Shown one piece after another: positions 10,495 through 25,007 of a stretch of 35,407 nucleotides of DNA. The notes beneath the pieces were generated by a model, which had not been told where the DNA came from, did not search any database, and was given only the letters and a program-made list of their open reading frames with translations. The translations under genes were made by a program, and so were the position numbers. This DNA is from Heliomicrobium modesticaldum Ice1 (lineage in GTDB: Bacteria > Bacillota > Desulfitobacteriia > Heliobacteriales > Heliobacteriaceae): the NCBI RefSeq assembly GCF_000019165.1, contig NC_010337.2, positions 3,040,001 through 3,075,407 on the forward strand, read 5' to 3'. Positions within the stretch are counted from its first letter, which is position 1. Each line of letters starts with the position of its first letter.

Positions 10495-11922
10495 TCATGC
10501 TGGTTGACGATGAGATTGGTATGTTTCGACTAAACTGACTAAGCCCTGTTCCCGCCAGTAGGCGAGGCCAAGGGCTTTATTCATTTGCGGGGTCAAGGAC
10601 AGACGCCAATATCCTTTTCGTGAGCCGCTGATGTTGCATGCCCATTCCTCCGGGATCCCCAACGCCACTAAGTTTCGTCTTCGTGTCTTCGGGCGCTTCC
10701 ATTGCTTGAGCAGGCACATCCGCAGTCGTCGGCGAAGCCACTCATCCAACTCTTTAAGTACGCTTGGCGTGTCAATGAGTCGAAAGTAGCCCATCCAGCC
10801 TTTCAGGTATTGGTTGAGGGTGACCAGTCGGTCCTCCATCGCAATGCTTCGGTTCCGCCCAGTGAACTGGCGGATCTTCTCTTTCACCCGTTTCACCGTT
10901 TGGGGGGCGAGCCGAATCTTTGCTGCCTTATGCCACGTAAATGAAAACCCCAGAAACTTTCGGTTCCAGGGTCGGTCGACTGCGCTTTTCTCCCAGTTGA
11001 CCTGCAGTTTTAACCGCCCCTCCAGAAACTTTGCCATACCCTCCATCACTCGTTGCCCTGCCCGTCGACTGCGGACGTAGACGTTACAGTCGTCGGCGTA
11101 CCGGCAGAAGCGATGTCCCCGGCTTTCCAGTGCCTTATCCAAATCATCCAGGATGATGTTCGCCAGCAAAGGGCTGAGTGGACCTCCCTGGGGTGTTCCT
11201 TCCTCGCTCTTCACACGAATCCCGTTGAGCATGACCCCGGCCTTGAGGTATTCTCGGATCAACTTCAAGATTCGTTTGTCCTTCACCTTGCGCGCTACGC
11301 GCGCCATGAGAATGTCGTGATTGACGCGATCAAAGAACTGGGCCAGGTCCATGTCAACCACCCATCGGTAGCCGTCGGCGATGTATTCCTTCGCTTTCTT
11401 CACCGCTTGGTGCGCACTCTTTCCCGGACGAAATCCGTAGCTGTTCGTGGAAAAGTCAGGGTCGAAGATCGGCATCAGGATCTGGTTCAGGGCCTGTTGG
11501 ATCAGTCGATCGACGACAGTGGGAATGCCCAGCTTCCGTGTTCCGCCTTGGGGTTTGGGAATTTCAACCCGCCGGACCGGTTGCGGTCGATAGGTCCCCT
11601 CCAACAATTCCTGTTTAATGCGCGACCATTCCTCTTTTAGGTACGGGCGCAGGGATTCTAGCCCCATACCGTCGATTCCGGCCGCGCCTTTGTTGGCCAT
11701 GACTCGCTTATACGCTTCCGTCATGTTCCCTCGTTCGACGACTTTCTCCATCAGATCATACGTCTCTTCGCGGGGTTGCTTCGCTTCTTGTGCCGGTAAC
11801 GCGCTCGGCACTCCACCGGTCCCCTGCGGATTCACCGCTTCCTCCCGTTGGCAGTTCCCTTTCGGGATATTCGGCTGTCTCTGCGCGTCACGCGAACGCA
11901 TCGTCGCTTCCCCTTCCATCAT
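10495..11922 (-). CDS. ltrA: Group II intron reverse transcriptase/maturase
   Basis: This multifunctional intron protein (475 aa) helps the intron RNA fold and splice, and reverse-transcribes it at new sites. Reverse transcriptase blocks are in order: N-K-G-A-A-G-I-D-G (about 90), I-P-K-P-Q-G-G-T-R-K-L-G-I-P-T (about 135), the S-Y-G-F-R-P-G-K-S block (about 175), D-L-A-Q-F-F-D, T-P-Q-G-G-P-L-S-P, and the catalytic Y-A-D-D (about 285). A maturase domain X (R-F-x-G-R-N, then L-N-Q-Y-L-K-G-W-M-G-Y-F) follows. There is no HNH endonuclease domain, since the protein ends soon after domain X, so it probably uses nicked or replicating DNA as target. It lies within intron domain IV. Confidence 0.95.
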   Translation of the reverse strand: MMEGEATMRSRDAQRQPNIPKGNCQREEAVNPQGTGGVPSALPAQEAKQPREETYDLMEKVVERGNMTEAYKRVMANKGAAGIDGMGLESLRPYLKEEWSRIKQELLEGTYRPQPVRRVEIPKPQGGTRKLGIPTVVDRLIQQALNQILMPIFDPDFSTNSYGFRPGKSAHQAVKKAKEYIADGYRWVVDMDLAQFFDRVNHDILMARVARKVKDKRILKLIREYLKAGVMLNGIRVKSEEGTPQGGPLSPLLANIILDDLDKALESRGHRFCRYADDCNVYVRSRRAGQRVMEGMAKFLEGRLKLQVNWEKSAVDRPWNRKFLGFSFTWHKAAKIRLAPQTVKRVKEKIRQFTGRNRSIAMEDRLVTLNQYLKGWMGYFRLIDTPSVLKELDEWLRRRLRMCLLKQWKRPKTRRRNLVALGIPEEWACNISGSRKGYWRLSLTPQMNKALGLAYWREQGLVSLVETYQSHRQPA

Positions 11923-12308
11923 GTTCGGTCCTTCATCTGGCCGGACGTCGGGCCAGCCTACTATGACCTCTGCTGACTCCTGCCGGTTCAGCCACGCCTT
12001 TCGGCGTGGTTTCCCAAGTTACTTGGTCCCCCGGCAGGCCTCCCCGGGTAAGAACGTTGCCTTTCCCTCCATCTACCCGCCCCATTTACTCTCGGCAGCC
12101 TTCGGTGACAAGGACTTCGCTTTGTTCGGCAAGCTCATCCAACTGCCGCTAGCCTCACCTGGGGTTCGTGGTCCTCGGGCCGGAGGTTTGCCGCTGGCTT
12201 CCTTCAGATTCCGCCTCGCGGCGGACACCCTTGCCTTAAGCTAACGCCTACTGCCACCTTCGGCGTTCGGGACTTCCACCCTAGAGACAACGCCCATGCC
12301 GGGCGCAC
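11923..12308 (-). other. Intron RNA domains I-III (non-coding)
   Basis: These 386 bases hold no gene. They form the 5' part of the group II intron, with many short GC-rich inverted repeats (for example GTCCGCC / GGCGGAA) and the 5' boundary at 12308. Exon-binding sequences could not be assigned by eye. Confidence 0.7.
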
Positions 12309-15189: not shown

Positions 15190-16509
15190 TTATTGCAATC
15201 GTTCCAGGGCGCGGCGTCCGATGTCCCTGCGGAACTGTAGGCCATCAAAATGGATCCGTTCCACCTGTCGGTAGGCCAGGTCGATGGCTTCGCCGATGGT
15301 CGGCCCCTTTGCTGTCACGGCGAGAACGCGTCCGCCTGCCGTGACGATCTGGTCTTCCTTGGCGGCAGTGCCGGCGTGGAAGACCTCGACACCAGGCAGC
15401 GCATCGTCCAGTCCGGAGATGGCCTTGCCTTTTTCGTAGTCCCCCGGATAACCGCCGGCGGCCATGACGACACAGACGGTGGCGTCGCTGCTCCACTCGA
15501 TCGGCTGCTCTTCGAGGCGGTTTTCCAGGATCGCCTCGATGACATCGACCAGGTCGGTCTGCATGCGCATCAGCACCGGTTGTGTCTCGGGATCGCCGAA
15601 GCGGGCGTTGTATTCGAGCACCTTCGGCCCCTGAGCGGTCACCATCAGTCCGGCATAGAGGACGCCGCGGTAGGGCCGCCCCTCGGCTTTCATCGCCTGG
15701 ATGGTGGGCAGCAAGACAGTCTTCTCGACTTCACGCGCCAGTGCTTCCGTGTAGACAGGGGCAGGCGAATAGGCGCCCATGCCGCCTGTGTTCGGTCCCT
15801 GGTCACCATCGAAGATGCGCTTGTGGTCCTGGGCGGACACCATGGGGAGCACATGGTCGCCGTCGGTGAAGGCCAAGATGCTCACTTCTTCGCCTTCTAA
15901 GAACTCTTCGATGACGACGCGCCGTCCGGCGTCACCGAAGGCGTTGCCCTTAAGCATGGAGCGGACGGCCTCCTTCGCTTCGGCCACATCGGCGGCGACG
16001 ATGACCCCCTTGCCTGCTGCAAGGCCGTCAGCTTTAACGACACAGGGGCAGCCTGCTTCGACCGGACGGGCGGCAGCCAGTTTGTCGATAAACTGGAAGG
16101 CAGGCTCGATCTCGGTGAAGACACCGTAAGCGGCTGTCGGGATGTCGTATTTCCGCATCAGATCCTTGGCGAAGGCTTTGGAGCCCTCGATCTCCGCCGC
16201 CTTTTTTGTGGGGCCGAAGATGGGCATCTCGTGGTCATTGAAGACATCGACGATGCCGGCCGACAGGGGCGCTTCCGGTCCGACGACAGTCAAGTCGATG
16301 CGCTTTTCCCAGGCGAAGGTCAAGATGCCGGTCACGTCATCGGCTTTGATGTCGACGCAGTGGGCGATCCGGGCGATCCCGGCATTGCCGGGGGCACAGT
16401 AGACTTCGGCCACGCGGGGGCTCTGTTTCAGTTTCCAGACGAGGGCATGTTCCCGTCCGCCGCCGCCGACGACGAGGACTTTCAATCCAGTGGCTTTTAA
16501 TTGTCTCAC
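15190..16509 (-). CDS. purD: Phosphoribosylamine-glycine ligase (GAR synthetase)
   Basis: This enzyme catalyses the second step of de novo purine synthesis: phosphoribosylamine + glycine + ATP to GAR. It is an ATP-grasp enzyme of 439 aa, slightly longer than usual (about 420-430). The N-terminal G-G-G-G-R-E-H-A-L loop (about 16-24), the ATP-binding G-L-A-A-G-K-G-V (about 160), and D-P-E-T-Q in the metal site (about 307) are visible. It starts at GTG, twelve bases after purH. The extra N-terminal residues before L-K-V-L-V-V-G mean a TTG nine codons later is also possible. Confidence 0.96.
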   Translation of the reverse strand: MRQLKATGLKVLVVGGGGREHALVWKLKQSPRVAEVYCAPGNAGIARIAHCVDIKADDVTGILTFAWEKRIDLTVVGPEAPLSAGIVDVFNDHEMPIFGPTKKAAEIEGSKAFAKDLMRKYDIPTAAYGVFTEIEPAFQFIDKLAAARPVEAGCPCVVKADGLAAGKGVIVAADVAEAKEAVRSMLKGNAFGDAGRRVVIEEFLEGEEVSILAFTDGDHVLPMVSAQDHKRIFDGDQGPNTGGMGAYSPAPVYTEALAREVEKTVLLPTIQAMKAEGRPYRGVLYAGLMVTAQGPKVLEYNARFGDPETQPVLMRMQTDLVDVIEAILENRLEEQPIEWSSDATVCVVMAAGGYPGDYEKGKAISGLDDALPGVEVFHAGTAAKEDQIVTAGGRVLAVTAKGPTIGEAIDLAYRQVERIHFDGLQFRRDIGRRALERLQ

Positions 16510-16521
16510 CTTCAGCCCCCC

Positions 16522-18105
16522 TTAGTGCTTGAAGTGGCGCATCCCGGTGAAGACCATGGCGACGCCAAGACGGTTGCAGGCTTCGATCGATTCAGCGTCA
16601 CGAACCGAGCCGCCTGGCTGGATGATGGCGCGGATCCCATAACGGGCAGCCGTTTCCACCGTATCTTTAAAGGGCAGGAATGCGTCAGAGGCGAGGACGG
16701 CGCCTTGCGCTGGGTTGTTGTGATCGACGCTGTCGCCGCCGAAGGCCCGCGAGGCTTTCGCCTGTTCGAGGGCGATCTGGGCCGAGCCGACGCGGTTCAT
16801 CTGGCCGGCACCGACGCCGATTGCTACGCCGTCTTTGGCGATGACGATGGCATTGGACTTGACGTGCTTGACCACCTTCCAGGCGAAGAGGAGGTCGGCC
16901 AGTTCCCCTTCTTCCGGCGCCCGTTCGGTGACGACCTGGATCTGCTCAGCAGTGACGTCGCCCAGGTCGGCCTCCTGGACGAGGAAACCGCCGCGGATCT
17001 TCTTCACATCGGCTGTCGCCGGGGCGCTGTCAGCGAGGGGCCCTGTTTCCATGATGCGCAGACCTTTTTTCTGCTGAAGGATCTCCAGGGCAGCTTCATC
17101 AAAGGACGGCGCGATGACGGCTTCCATGAAGGTCTTGACGACCTCATTGGCGGTGTCGGCGTCGACGGCGACGTTGAAGGCGATGATGCCGCCAAAGGCG
17201 GAGACCGGATCGGCGGCAAAAGCTTTTTCATAAGCCTCTTTTAATGTGGCTGCGACGGCGACGCCGCAGGGATTGTTGTGCTTGATGATGGCGGCGGCAG
17301 GCCGGTCGAATTCGCGAACCAGTTCCAGGGCGGCGTTCAGGTCGAGGAGGTTATTGAAGGACAGTTCCTTGCCCCAGCGTTGTTTCGCCGTTCCGGCACC
17401 GGCCCCCCGGTAGCCCCTTTCGCGGTAGAAGGCAGCCTTCTGGTGCGGGTTTTCGCCGTAGCGCAAATCCTGCACTTTTTCCACCTTGCCGGGGGCGAAG
17501 ATGCCGGCGAAGGGGTCGTCGTCGCCTGCTTCAGCCGCCAGGTAAGCGGCGATGGCGGCGTCATACTCGGCTGTATGGGCGAAGGCTTCCCGGGCCAAGG
17601 CGCGACGGGTCGCTTCCGAGACGACGCCGTTCTGTTGCAGTTCGGCCAATACGGTGGCGTACCGGTCAGGGTTGACGATGATGGCCACCGACTCGTGGTT
17701 TTTCGCCGACGCCCGAACCATGGCCGGTCCGCCGATGTCGATGTTTTCAACGGCCTCTTCACGGGTTACGCCCGGCTTGGCGACGGTCTCGCGGAAGGGG
17801 TAGAGGTTGACAGCCACCACGTCGATGGGGACGATGGCGTGGGCCTCCAATTGGGCGAGGTGCTCCGGCGTCCGGCGGGCCAGGATGCCGCCGTGAACCT
17901 TGGGATGGAGCGTCTTGACACGGCCGTCAAGGATCTCGGGAAAGCCGGTGATCTCGGTCACATAAGTGACGGGAACGCCGGCGGCCTTGATCGTCTGATA
18001 TGTACCGCCGGTGGATACAATTTCAAAACCGAGATCGGCCAAGCCCCGGGCGAAGTCCACGACGCCGGTCTTATCGGAGACGCTGATGAGGGCGCGACGG
18101 TTCAT
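16522..18105 (-). CDS. purH: Bifunctional AICAR transformylase / IMP cyclohydrolase
   Basis: This enzyme carries out the last two steps to IMP, formylation of AICAR by 10-formyl-THF and ring closure. At 527 aa it is full length. The N-terminal MGS-like cyclohydrolase domain (about 1-140) holds S-V-S-D-K-T-G and the [10 protein letters not shown] loop. The C-terminal transformylase domain (about 200-527) has the catalytic K-H-N-N-P-C-G and D-P-V-S-A-F-G-G. The ribosome site GGGAGG precedes the ATG. 133 bases separate it from purN, and no hairpin of note was seen in that gap. Confidence 0.97.
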
Positions 18106-18238
18106 GGTTTACCTCCCTGATTTCAGTTCAAAAAATATGCCGGAAAGGCTCCCAAAGACTGCAAAGGGATTCGAAGGTTGAGAACAAAGGACTGAACGGG
18201 CCCTGCAGAATGATCTGACCTTGCCAGAAAAACCGGCG

Positions 18239-18844
18239 CTACTCGATGATCACCCGCCGGCCCTCGATCCGTAGCCGGCCTTCGGCCAAAAGTTGCAAGG
18301 CCTCCGGCAGGATACGGTGTTCTTCCTTTAAGATGCGGGCCGCCAGGGTGTCTTCATTGTCGTCGGGGTGAACGGGAACGACAGCCTGGAGGATGATCGG
18401 TCCCGAATCAAGCCCCTCATCGACAAAATGGACGGTGCAACCGGAAAAGCGCACGCCGTAGTCAATAGCCTGGCGATGGCCATGCAACCCGGGAAAGGCC
18501 GGCAACAAGGTCGGATGGATATTGATGATCCGCCCCGGAAAAGCGTCGAGCAACGCTGTCGTGATCAGCCGCATATAGCCGGCCAGCAGCAGCGTGTCGG
18601 CGCCGGCGCTTTTCAACAGTTCCGCCGCCTTGCGGTCATAGTCGAGCCGCTGAGGATACTCCGACGGCGGCAGGTGAACGGCCGGAATGCCCCGCAACGC
18701 CGCCCGCTCCAGCGCCGGAGCGTCCTGACGGTTGGAGAGGACCATGACGACCTGGGCATCGAGGCGGCCGGCATCGATGGCGTCGAGGACGGCCTGCAGG
18801 TTGGAGCCGCGTCCGGAGGCGAGGACGCCGAGCTTCAATGTCAT
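18239..18844 (-). CDS. purN: GAR transformylase
   Basis: This enzyme transfers a formyl group from 10-formyl-THF to GAR, the third step of the pathway. It shows [10 protein letters not shown] near the N-terminus, the catalytic segment [12 protein letters not shown] (about 107-118) with Asn and His, and the aspartate of V-D-E-G-L-D-S-G. The open frame begins at 18865, but ATG 18844 overlaps the purM stop (ATGA), so coupled translation from there (M-T-L-K-L-G-V-L) is preferred, giving 201 aa. Confidence 0.96.
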
Positions 18845-19941
18845 TCGCCCTTCCCCCGCTCCCAAGCCATGAGGCCGCTGTAGACAACGTCAGGCGCGGC
18901 TTCGGCGCCCCGGGCGCTCGGCTCGATCACGCCGATACGGTGACAGGTTTCCCCCATCGCCGCCAAGATATTGACAGCTTGGTCTGCCTCTTCCGGGGAG
19001 ACGACGAGGATGAAGCCAACGCCGCAGTTGAAGGTGCGCAGCATCTCGGCACCGGCTATATTCCCCTTGGCCTGGAGCACGGTGAAGACGGGCGGCACGG
19101 GCCAGCTGCCCAGTTCAATCGCAGCCTGGGTTCCCGCCGGCAGGACGCGGGGGATGTTCTCCGTCAAGCCGCCGCCGGTGATATGGGCCATGCCTTTGAC
19201 GGCCACCTTTTCCAGCAACGCAAGGACCGGTTTGACATAGATGCGCGTCGGCGTCAGCAGTTCCTCGCCGACGGTTTTGCCGAGTTCGGGCAAGAAGGTG
19301 TCGACGCTGTGGCCGGCATGGTCGAAAAAGACCTTGCGGGCCAGCGAGTAACCGTTGCTGTGCAATCCGGACGAAGGGATAGCCAGCATTACGTCACCGG
19401 GACGAATCGCTGAGCCGTCGATCAGCTTTTTGCGATCGGCTACGCCGACGCAAAAACCGGCCACGTCATAGTCTTCTTCGGCGTAAAAGCCGGGCATCTC
19501 GGCCGTCTCGCCGCCGATGAGGGCGCAGCCGGCTTGGCGGCAGCCTTCCGCTACACCAGAGACGATGGCGGCCACCTTTTCGGGAACCAGTTTGCCGACA
19601 GCCAGGTAGTCGAGGAAAAAGAGCGGCTCGGCGCCCTGAACAAGGATGTCGTTAGCGCACATGGCTACACAGTCAACGCCGATCGTGTCATGGCGGTCCA
19701 TCAACATGGCCACGCGCAGCTTGGTGCCGACACCGTCGGTGCCGGAGACGAGGATCGGTTCTTCATACCTGCCGACGTTGAGGGCGAAAAGGCCGCCGAA
19801 ACCGCCGATGTCGGTGAGCACTTCGGGCCGAAAGGTGCTCCGGACCTGGCCTTTCATCAGTTCGACGGCTCGGTTGCCGGCGGTGATGTCGACGCCTGCC
19901 TGGGCGTAGGTCAAGCCTGCCTGTTTTTGTTGCTCCGTCAT
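18841..19941 (-). CDS. purM: Phosphoribosylformylglycinamidine cyclo-ligase (AIR synthetase)
   Basis: This enzyme closes the imidazole ring, converting FGAM to AIR with ATP. The 366-aa sequence is slightly longer than usual (about 345). It has the family strands Y-A-Q-A-G-V-D-I, the ATP-site [11 protein letters not shown] (about 65-75), and G-G-E-T-A-E-M-P-G. The gene starts nine bases after purF, and the purF stop codon is part of its ribosome site TAGGAGG. Its substrate FGAM comes from PurL/PurQ/PurS, of which only PurS is in the window. Confidence 0.97.
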
Positions 19942-19950
19942 GGGTACCTC

Positions 19951-21396
19951 CTAGCAGCCGCAGCCTTCCATGGCGTACTTGTCTAAGCCGATGGGGATTT
20001 CGATGGGGTAACTACCGCAGAAGCAGGCCATACAGTAGTTATCATCGGCGATGTGGGGGTTCTGTTCCGTCATGGCCCGCAGGAGCCCTTCCCGGGAGAG
20101 GTAGTGCAGGCTTTCGGCGCCGATCATCTCGCAGATCTCCTCAATCGTCTTGGTGGCCGCCACCAGTTCCTTGCGGACCGACGTGTCGATGCCGTAATAA
20201 CAAGGGTGGGTGATCGGCGGCGATGAGACGAGCATGTGCACTTCTTTCGCCCCGGCGTGGCGCAGCATTTGGACGATCTTGCCGCTCGTGGTGCCGCGGA
20301 CGATGGAGTCGTCAATCATGATCACCCGCTTGCCTTCCACCGCCTTGGCGACGGCGTTCAGCTTTAAGCGCACCGACTGAGCGCGGATCTCCTGAGTGGG
20401 CTGGATGAAGGTACGTCCTACATAGCGGTTTTTCATCAAGCCCTGGTCAAAGGGGATGCCCGATTCCTGGGCGTAACCGATGGCGGCCGCCGTGCCTGAG
20501 TCGGGAACGCCGATGACGATGTCGGCGTCGATCTTGCACTCCAGGGCCAGTTGGCGGCCCATGGCCCGGCGGGCCTGGTTGACGCTGATGCCGTCGATGA
20601 CCGAGTCGGGACGGGCAAAATAGATGTATTCAAAGATGCAGGCAGCCCGGCGCGGCTGGGTCAGCGCCTTGAGAGAGACGAGGCCATTTTCGTCGATGGA
20701 GATGATCTCGCCCGGCTCGATGTCGCGGACGAAATCGGCGCCCAGGGTATCCAGGGCACAGGACTCAGAGGCGATCACATAGGCGTCGCCCAGGCGGCCC
20801 AGGCAGAGGGGGCGGACGCCGTGGGGGTCGCGCACCGCCAGCAGCCGCTTTTCCGTCATGACCAGCAGCGAGTAGGAGCCTTTGATATCGATCATCGTCT
20901 TGATCAGGGCTTCTTCCAGGGAGGACTGGCCGTAGCGGGCCAGCAGGTTGACGACCACTTCGGTGTCGGTCGTCGTCTGGAAGACGGCGCCGGTGACGGC
21001 CAAGTTGTGACGCAGCTCTGCCGCGTTGGTCAGGTTGCCGTTGTGGGCCACCGCCATCATGCCCTTGCTGTAACGGAAGATCAAGGGCTGGGCATTGGCA
21101 AGCAGGCTCGATCCGGTCGTCGAGTAGCGCACATGGCCGATGGCCACATCCCCTTGCAGTTCCTTGAGCTTGCGTTCGTCAAAGGCTTCCGTGACCAGGC
21201 CCATCCCCTTGTGAAAGAGGATCGCCCGTTCATTGCCTACGGCGATGCCGGCGCTTTCCTGCCCGCGGTGTTGCAGGGCGAAGAGGCCGAAGTAGGCCAA
21301 CCGGGCCACGTCTTTTCCGGGCCCATAGATCCCGATTAGTCCACACTCTTCCTCCATCTTGTCCCAAGGAAGATCGTGGGTGCGTTCATATGACAT
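19951..21396 (-). CDS. purF: Amidophosphoribosyltransferase
   Basis: This is the first committed step of purine synthesis: PRPP + glutamine to phosphoribosylamine. The start at ATG 21396 has GGGAGG six bases upstream. A 17-residue propeptide precedes Cys18, the N-terminal nucleophile (C-G-L-I-G-I-Y-G), which is freed by processing in the Bacillus-type enzyme. The glutaminase domain spans about 18-250. The phosphoribosyltransferase domain carries the PRPP loop [13 protein letters not shown] (about 360-372). C-terminal cysteines (Y-C-M-A-C-F-C-G) indicate the oxygen-sensitive 4Fe-4S cluster of Gram-positive PurF. It directly follows purS, without purQ and purL. Confidence 0.97.
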
Positions 21397-21418
21397 GATA
21401 GGCCTCCCGCCGGTGGTT

Positions 21419-21757
21419 TTAGTTGGACAAGGGTTCAATCTCACAGCTGAAGGCTTCCAAGACCTCATTGATCAACCGCTGGCGGCAGAAGTCTTCCGCC
21501 TGCCGCCTCGCCGCCTCCGCATCATCTGTATCGAGGAGGAACTCGACGTAGCGACCGATCCGCAGGCCGGCAGGTAGGACCGGACTGTTCTGCGCCGATG
21601 ACGGCGCCGTCACAGCCGGCAAGGCCGACTTGCCCGGCGCTGTCGTCTCAAACGCAGCCAGCTTGTCGCCAGCCTCCCTGAGCCGCTGTTCGAGGGCATC
21701 CCTTTGCGGATCGCAAAAGCCGGCTTTGACGGTGATGATGATCTTCGCTTTAAACAT
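21419..21757 (-). CDS. purS: FGAM synthase small subunit PurS, with an insertion
   Basis: PurS is the small scaffold protein of the three-part FGAM synthase (PurL-PurQ-PurS). The ends match the family: F-K-A-K-I-I-I-T-V-K at the start with D-P-Q, then R-I-G-R-Y-V-E-F-L-L-D, and the final helix-strand with L-I-N-E-V-L-E. Normal PurS is about 80-85 aa and this one is 112. The excess, about residues 33-64, is an Ala/Pro/Ser/Thr-rich stretch placed just before the R-I-G-R-Y strand. It starts three bases after purC and ends 22 bases before purF. Its usual partners purQ and purL are not between it and purF. Confidence 0.85.
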   Translation of the reverse strand: MFKAKIIITVKAGFCDPQRDALEQRLREAGDKLAAFETTAPGKSALPAVTAPSSAQNSPVLPAGLRIGRYVEFLLDTDDAEAARRQAEDFCRQRLINEVLEAFSCEIEPLSN

Positions 21758-21760
21758 GGG

Positions 21761-22486
21761 CTACCCCTTCAGCTTGCCCTCCAACCGGTTCAGGATCTCC
21801 CGGTAGGCCTCTTCAAGGCCACCCATGTCGCGGCGGAAACGGTCTTTGTCCAGTTTTTCTCTGGTCCGGCTGTCCCAGAAACGGCAGGTGTCGGGCGAGA
21901 TCTCGTCACCTAGGAGCACCTCGCCATTGTGGAGACCAAACTCCAGTTTGAAGTCGACGAGGTCGATGTTCAAACCGGCCAGGAATTCCTTGAGGATCTC
22001 GTTGACCTTGAGCGCGATGGCTTTGATGACGTCCATCTGTTCCGGCGTGGCCCACTCCATAGCGGCGATGTGGTATTCGTTGATCATCGGGTCGCCGAGG
22101 GCGTCATCTTTGTAATAAAACTCGAGGACCGGCTTGGCCAGCGGCGTGCCTTCCGGCTGGCCGACACGCTTGGCCAATGAGCCGGCAACGATGTTGCGGG
22201 CAACCACTTCGACGGGGATGATCTGCAGGGACTTGACGAGCATCTCCCGGTCGTTGATCAGCTCAACGAAGTGGGACGGAACGCCTTGCTTGGCCAAGTA
22301 TTGAAAAAAGAGGGCCGAGATGCGGTTGTTGAGGACACCCTTGTTTTCGATCTCCGCCTTCTTTTCGCCGTTGAAGGCGGTCGCCGAGTCCTTGTACTCA
22401 ATCCAGTAGATATCAGGGTTTTCGGTCCGGAAGACCTTTTTGGCTTTTCCTTCGTAAATCTGCTCCAGTTTGTTCAATTCGGGCAT
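21761..22486 (-). CDS. purC: SAICAR synthetase
   Basis: This ATP-dependent enzyme joins CAIR and aspartate to SAICAR. From ATG 22486 (GGGGAG eight bases upstream) it is 241 aa, the normal length. Family features are Y-E-G-K-A-K-K-V-F (about 10-18), [18 protein letters not shown] and the [10 protein letters not shown] segment. The open frame extends 30 codons upstream without a ribosome site, so that part is left out. 126 bases separate it from purB, with nothing recognisable in the gap. Confidence 0.96.
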
Positions 22487-22612
22487 GCTCTGAACTCCCC
22501 TTTCTAATTTTTGCGCAACCTTGCCGCCTATTGTCGCTTTTTCTTTGCCGGGCTTATGGGGATACGCTTTTACCACCTTTGGAACCGGGCTTGTTTTTGA
22601 TTGCCGATCGCC

Positions 22613-23905
<1,293 letters not shown>

Positions 23906-23980: not shown

Positions 23981-24049
23981 GCAAAAAGCAAAGCCCGGGC
24001 AGATAGATTCCCGCCTTGCCAATGCAAGGAACCTATCCGCCTGGGCTTT
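23981..24049 (-). terminator. Riboswitch expression platform: intrinsic terminator before purB
   Basis: On the minus strand 24049-24033 pairs with 24006-23990 over 17 positions with one mismatch and one GU pair (AAAGCCC / GGGCTTT at the base). An inner CCTTGC / GCAAGG stem caps it. The transcript continues GCTTTTTGCC. The first arm overlaps the 3' end of the PRPP aptamer, so terminator and aptamer cannot both be complete. Confidence 0.88.
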
Positions 24050-24147
24050 TCTCCCTCCGGTGTAAAAAGGGCAAACATCATCGGTTGACCCCTTTTTGCA
24101 GCGCTCGGTCCAGGCCGTTGCACGCGGAACCCTAAGCTGCACTTCCC
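24028..24147 (-). ncRNA. PRPP riboswitch aptamer (ykkC subtype 2b) in the purB leader
   Basis: Read on the minus strand, the leader contains the conserved ykkC-family blocks in order: GGGAAGT (24147-24141), CTTAGGGTTCCG (24136-24125), CTGGACCGAG (24113-24104), a variable AAAAAGGG / CCCTTTTT stem (24097-24064), ACACCGGAGGGAGAAAAGCC (from 24063) and GGCGGATAGGTTCC (to 24028). The outer GGAA / TTCC pairing is the extra helix of the PRPP subclass. Position before purB and overlap with a terminator fit the known logic: PRPP bound, terminator prevented, purine genes on. Assignment is by recognition of the core; no covariance search was possible. Confidence 0.88.
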
Positions 24148-24184: not shown

Positions 24185-24190
24185 ATTATA
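24185..24190 (-). promoter_or_regulatory. Minus-10 box candidate for the purB transcript
   Basis: A perfect TATAAT on the minus strand lies directly after the purE stop codon, about 38 bases before the riboswitch. No good minus-35 is found 17 bases upstream (GAGCCG). If real, it gives purB-purD a promoter independent of purE. Confidence 0.4.
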
Positions 24191-24192
24191 TC

Positions 24193-24708
24193 CTAAAAAA
24201 CCGGTCTCGGCTCCCCCAAATTTGCATCTTTCTTTTCGACTTGGCGGACCATTTTTTCCTTATAGGCCTTAAACTTCTCCCGCAGGTGGGGGTGTTTACC
24301 GCCGAGAATCTGGACGGCCAGCAATCCGGCGTTTTTGGCGCCGTCGACGGCCACCGTCGCCACGGGGACGCCAGGGGGCATCTGGGCGATGGAGAGCAGG
24401 CTGTCCCAGCCGCGAAGGGCGCCCGATTGGAGGGGAACGCCGATGACAGGCAGGACGGTGAAGGCGGCGATGACACCGGGCAGGTGGGCTGCCATGCCGG
24501 CGCCGGCGATGAGCACCTCGATGCCGCGCTCTTCAGCCGTCTGGGCGTAGCGGGCGGCGCGATCAGGCGTGCGGTGGGCCGAGGCGACGATCATTTCGGA
24601 CTTGACGCCGAATTCCTCGAGGACTTCGGCGGCGTCTTTCATGACCTTCAGGTCAGAGTCGCTGCCCATGATGATGCCGACGAGGGGTTTGTCGTTTCGC
24701 TGGCTCAT
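24193..24708 (-). CDS. purE: 5-(carboxyamino)imidazole ribonucleotide mutase
   Basis: This enzyme moves the carboxyl group from N5-CAIR to CAIR. At 171 aa it is of normal length. The G-S-D-S-D segment (about 15-19) and the catalytic A-S-A-H-R-T-P (about 43-49) are intact, as is the P-L-Q-S-G-A-L-R-G loop. It resembles class I enzymes, which need PurK to make N5-CAIR. No purK is in the window. GGGAGG precedes the ATG. It is the first gene of the purine cluster but is separated from purB by the riboswitch. Confidence 0.96.
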
Positions 24709-25007
24709 TGGTATCCTCCCTATGTTTGTCGCCCCGGATTGGGGGCGTTAATCGCTTTCATTACAGTTGGTTTTTGCTATTATTTGCAACCCGTCTGCTT
24801 TGTCGCGGGTTGGCCAGGGCCGGGCGCTAAGAGCTCCGCTCAAACCGCGCCCGACCCTAGCCAACCCTGGACGTTCAAAGGGGATTCAATCCTAACCAAA
24901 GGGTTTCAGTACTAACATAAAACCCCACAGCCCAATAGACTCGTCCCTTCGCTTAATCGGTTTTTTCCTATCTCGCTCCCTTATCGCCCACTCACCGGAG
25001 CCAACCT
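24709..25007 (-). other. purE leader region
   Basis: No gene is seen between the permease terminator and purE. The region holds the structured element at 24787-24867. No clear sigma-A promoter, PurBox pair or guanine riboswitch core could be recognised. Confidence 0.45.
24787..24867 (-). promoter_or_regulatory. Structured leader with competing hairpins upstream of purE
   Basis: On the minus strand GGGTTGGC-AGGG-CGGGCG (24867-24848) pairs with CGCCCG-CCCT-GCCAACCC (24826-24807), broken only by single-base mismatches. CAACCCG (24812-24806) can instead pair with CGGGTTG (24793-24787). The two structures share the CAACCC arm and exclude each other. No T-run follows, so if it regulates, it may act on translation or RNA stability. 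Its class is not recognised. Confidence 0.45.

Follow-up and report, generated by a model that had tools for sequence, protein, structure and literature searches.

What lies between purE and purB on the minus strand of this region of Heliomicrobium modesticaldum Ice1 (the whole stretch of 35,407 nucleotides is referred to here as the window), which ligand does it recognise, and how does its position behind purE compare with that of its relatives? The stretch contains a complete ykkC-family aptamer (24146-24028, minus strand), which is very probably a singlet PRPP riboswitch (ykkC subtype 2b) that switches on transcription of purB and of the purine genes downstream. PRPP is a building block of purines.

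Read on the minus strand from position 24147, the leader includes the core ykkC blocks in order: GGAAG (the P0 5′ strand), GCAGCTTAGGGTTCC, CTGGACCGAGCGCTGC, the P2 hairpin, ACACCGGAGGG and AAAAGCCCAGGCGGATAGGTTCC (P3, then the P0 3′ strand). At a finer split these become GGAAG, GCAGC, TTAGGGTTCC, CTGGACCGAGCGCTGC, the P2 hairpin, ACACCGGAGGG and AAAAGCCCAGGCGGATAGGTTCC. An earlier note on this DNA had placed ordered ykkC blocks in the purB leader, and they are indeed found there, on the minus strand, which it had not specified. The limits of the PRPP aptamer (24028-24146) and its helices were obtained by aligning seven heliobacterial sequences and deriving an RNAalifold consensus. On the minus strand the consensus includes P0 (24146-24143 with 24031-24028), P1 (24141-24136 with 24102-24097), P1a (24131-24127 with 24111-24107), P2 (24096-24088 with 24072-24064) and P3 (24060-24058/24055-24053 with 24045-24043/24039-24037). 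The leader as a whole (24150-23975) has a folding energy of -75.6 kcal/mol (z = -3.46), equalled or bettered by none of 200 dinucleotide shuffles. The P0-P1-P2-P3 structure is retained in 95.7% of cells over 58 distinct related sequences, and 24 of its 33 pairs show double-sided changes; as the sequences were aligned by fitting them to the model, these counts are biased in favour of the structure. Shifted structures are retained in 28.7–53.5% of cells and 0/500 shuffles match the observed value. P0 joins the conserved 5′ and 3′ ends through GGAA/UUCC pairs, as in the PRPP subclass. Of its cells, 97.4% are paired in the same model-fitted alignment, and its pairs covary (one, for example, is A-U in 27 sequences and G-C in 25), in agreement with the PRPP-type outer pairing proposed earlier.

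The element escapes routine annotation. A default Rfam scan of the whole window, using gathering cut-offs, reported no match at the purB leader and only a group II intron elsewhere. This intron (10495-12225, minus strand; Rfam D1D4-3 and D1D4-1) carries a reverse transcriptase/maturase with RVT_1 and GIIM domains. The ykkC covariance search suggested in the earlier note did give a match in a permissive scan: Guanidine-I (RF00442, the general ykkC model) aligns with 24147-24036 at 54.3 bits (E 4.5e-9). Together with the consensus structure, this identifies a ykkC core of P1, P2 and P3 with its conserved loops. The score lies below the gathering score of the model (63 bits), which explains why the default scan misses the element. 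Guanidine-I was the sole model to match the element in the permissive scan, which reported no separate PRPP or ppGpp family, and only one ykkC element was found in the whole genome at E < 0.1. The Guanidine-I model alone catches PRPP and ppGpp members here, below its cut-off; in standard annotation they would go unnoticed or receive the wrong label.

Since members of this class share a scaffold, the ligand must be read from individual bases. We transferred the base numbering of the published Thermoanaerobacter mathranii aptamer by spacing (G96, then A, A, G and G at +5, +7, +8 and +9) and used ykkC members from the same class of bacteria as specificity controls. Taken at its name, the only matching Rfam model would make the element a guanidine-I riboswitch. 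Apart from that 54.3-bit match, which does not reach the threshold, little agrees with this: members from sister species that pass the cut-off score 72–95 bits, those read carry A at the guanidine-defining position (A46), and the window has C (24103, minus strand). The position corresponds to C49 in the PRPP aptamer from T. mathranii (PMC6031431), and a C there excludes guanidine specificity. Position 49 is C or T in 52/52 non-guanidine sequences and A in 7/7 guanidine-type controls, several of which precede SugE/EmrE-like carriers. The genes downstream of the window element are purine genes, not guanidine carriers, and a PRPP aptamer is reported to undergo no structural change with guanidine (PMC5912903); recognition of guanidine is thus improbable in the extreme. 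A ppGpp riboswitch (ykkC subtype 2a), raising purine gene expression in the stringent response, would share the overall fold, the P0 helix and the pyrimidine at position 49, and ppGpp-like members of the same class do occur before branched-chain amino-acid genes, where the controls also have C49. Here the discriminating base is position 96, where G is found in more than 97% of PRPP aptamers and not in ppGpp aptamers; the G96A change alone converts a PRPP aptamer to a ppGpp aptamer, with a change in specificity of about 40,000-fold (PMC6031431). It is G in the window (24041, minus strand), in 8/8 heliobacteria and in 31 of 32 other sequences, the exception having no pur gene found nearby, and it is A in seven ilv-type ppGpp-like sequences. 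In a second control group (n = 5, before citramalate/isopropylmalate synthase-like genes) the tail is shorter and the alignment of position 96 is uncertain. The tail of the window element is AGGCGGAUAGGUUCC rather than GAGCGGAAAGUUCC or CGUGGCAAGUUC, and the genes behind it are purine genes, not amino-acid genes, making ppGpp a very unlikely ligand. The remaining positions also fit PRPP. In the published structure A5, G6, A101, A103, G104 and G105 contact or shape the ligand site and the aptamer ends pair as P0 (PMC6031431); in the window, A101, U102, A103, G104 and G105 (AUAGG, 24032-24036, minus strand) form a 3′ stretch whose spacing and identity fit these contacts. A103, G104 and G105 are kept in 8/8 heliobacteria, and in one genus A101 is replaced by U. 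With C49, G96, A101, A103, G104, G105 and a GGAA/UUCC P0, the window element is of the PRPP type at every position tested.

The aptamer is followed by an intrinsic terminator (23992-24047, minus strand; -37.2 kcal/mol for 24047-23975), and the two overlap extensively. As had been noticed from the sequence, they share a strand: 19 of the 25 terminator pairs use the aptamer 3′ strand, made up of the 3′ halves of P3 and P0 and the ligand-contact stretch, so that the last 19–20 bases of the aptamer double as the terminator 5′ arm and the two structures are mutually exclusive. The same overlap, of 18–20 pairs, is present in 8/8 Heliobacteriaceae genomes, and in the genus with the A101 to U change the opposing terminator base has also changed, preserving the pair. 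The stem is followed by TTGCTTTTTG, with a T run (CTTTGCTTTTTG, 23983-23987, minus strand) that is just five long and preceded by CTTTG, a feature which counts against the PRPP switch. A rival reading, in which the purE/purB gap holds just a terminator or attenuator that needs no ligand, is favoured by the fact that no fold in the leader is stronger than the terminator. However, conservation of the aptamer bases goes far beyond what a terminator arm requires (AAAAGCCCAGGCGG is invariant in the eight heliobacterial genomes), P0 to P2 covary, and a published aptamer mutant loses its response (PMC5912903); a ligand-free element therefore seems highly improbable. For the PRPP switch, the following cycle can be proposed. 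When PRPP is scarce, the aptamer 3′ end (24047-24028) would pair with the stretch ending at 23992, forming the terminator and stopping transcription before purB. When purine synthesis lags, PRPP would build up and keep P3 and P0 paired, leaving no free terminator arm, and RNA polymerase could enter purB. The anatomy, a terminator competing with the aptamer 3′ end, fits the ON switch by antitermination that had been predicted, and its function is taken from the published PRPP-dependent read-through of the purB leader of this organism (PMC5912903).

The genes behind the switch are those expected of a PRPP riboswitch, in line with the earlier reading. The first is purB (22613-23905, minus strand), encoding adenylosuccinate lyase (TIGR00928, 572.5 bits against a cut-off of 326.2), and the rest of the run (15190-22576, minus strand; NCBIfam matches for the named genes) comprises purC, a purS-like gene, purF, purM, purN, an open reading frame at 16522-18105 and purD. 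From its position and N-terminus, this frame (527 aa) is probably purH, and the switch would then head a long purB-purC-purS-purF-purM-purN-purH-purD run. In the PurS-like frame (21419-21757, minus strand), which overlaps the start of the purF frame, the match to the PurS models covers the C-terminal part alone (37.8 bits against a cut-off of 39). PurL is absent from the cluster; the frame that matches it best in the genome (1288 aa, position 2579642) does not reach the cut-off of the 718-position PurL model. The genome also includes a type I reaction-centre gene.

The switch is preceded by purE (24193-24708, minus strand; TIGR01162, 215 bits), which lies beyond its direct reach and which we infer to escape regulation by PRPP. 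A candidate -10 box, TATAAT (24185-24190, minus strand), lies just past the purE stop and could mark the start of a purB transcript. It has no good -35 box and is not listed by a promoter scan. Among relatives, TATAAT is found in two sister species and TAAAAT in two further genomes (G004 and G008), and the box is absent from another (G006), where the gap between purE and the element is only about 15 bases. On its other side, purE is preceded by a hairpin of about 21 pairs (24806-24880, minus strand), with copies at sister-species loci L114 (939-1145 and 1209-1425) and L115 (1158-1350). In the two sister species its loop includes a GC-rich core of about 140 bases, lacking in the window copy. 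This core is an interspersed repeat of heliobacteria, with 24 matches in this genome and 13–28 in four relatives, and it gave no Rfam match in the sister-species loci scanned; it is perhaps a repeat of the MITE-like or structured kind.

The element lies directly before purB in 8/8 Heliobacteriaceae genomes. In six of these purE is upstream on the same strand, and in two Heliorestis-like genomes it is located elsewhere. A model built from seven heliobacterial elements matches 211 of 398 Bacillota genomes, a number which includes ppGpp- and guanidine-type relatives; it recovered elements with variant core letters that a regular-expression search had missed. Among the best 26 matches outside Heliobacteriaceae, most precede purE then purB and others precede purD or a permease. 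Relatives outside Heliobacteriaceae show the order switch-permease-purE-purB (L034 and L037) or switch-purE-purB (L041 and L042). Since the switch is mostly found before purE in other Bacillota, the heliobacterial order purE-switch-purB appears as a local shift. The position had been described earlier as an unusual one inside the pur cluster, leaving purE outside. It does differ from that in most other Bacillota, but the switch leads the long purB-purD run, with purE on the outside. A tentative explanation, drawn from gene order and somewhat less than an even bet, is that in heliobacteria the switch moved from before purE to the purE/purB gap; neither PurE nor the purine permease before it would then be subject to PRPP control, and the switch may be fed by one or two transcripts, from purE read-through or from a promoter just past the purE stop. 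Two PRPP-type aptamers with G96 are also found outside the usual pur operon: one (L175, 1501-1619, minus strand) lies before a glyA-like gene and behind pyrE- and purE-like genes, and the other (L158, 1501-1622, minus strand) precedes a gene for a BMP-type substrate-binding lipoprotein.

The element itself is already known, having been published in 2018. Sherlock et al. (eLife 7:e33908, PMC5912903) used as a test case the ‘purB singlet PRPP riboswitch of H. modesticaldum’. In their study, PRPP relieved termination of the purB leader in vitro (T50 of 40–90 uM) and an aptamer mutant was unresponsive to PRPP. In vivo, lacZ came on in B. subtilis delta-purF, and with the terminator mutated it was on in either strain (PMC5912903). 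The organism and the gene are the same and there is a single ykkC element in the genome, so that the window element is almost certainly the published copy; we infer that the published construct corresponds to this stretch base for base. The observation is confirmed and its interpretation supported. The anatomy, subclass bases, shared strand and family conservation are established here; binding of PRPP by this leader is predicted, with read-through reported in the published study (PMC5912903). With the element and its function in the literature, the finding in itself matters little. Its value is that of a positive control: a validated riboswitch, along with its subclass and mechanism, was recognised from raw sequence at a place where the default Rfam scan was silent. 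What is new is confined to the position behind purE, a candidate for a small lineage-specific rewiring.

Comparison with known systems places the element closest to that published H. modesticaldum purB singlet (PMC5912903), which shares its organism, gene, singlet state, a terminator forming only without PRPP and ON-switch behaviour; on these described features the two showed no difference. A tandem guanine-PRPP riboswitch was considered and rejected: the purine model (RF00167) found no guanine aptamer in the window, where it would lie directly upstream, or in the genome. The absence noted earlier is therefore correct, but it is not unusual, since 127 of 257 PRPP aptamers have a guanine aptamer as tandem partner (PMC5912903) and the remainder, about half, are singlets. 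The tandem riboswitches, such as Bacillus megaterium codA, have the PRPP half and the terminator logic in common with the window element and differ in their guanine aptamer. The T. mathranii PRPP aptamer (Knappenberger et al. 2018, PMC6031431) resembles it in P0, C49, G96, A101, A103, G104, G105 and the four-way junction, but comes from another organism, and its crystal construct is the aptamer alone, without an expression platform. The guanidine-I (RF00442) and ppGpp (ykkC 2a) riboswitches share the scaffold, the former differing at base 49 and the latter at base 96.
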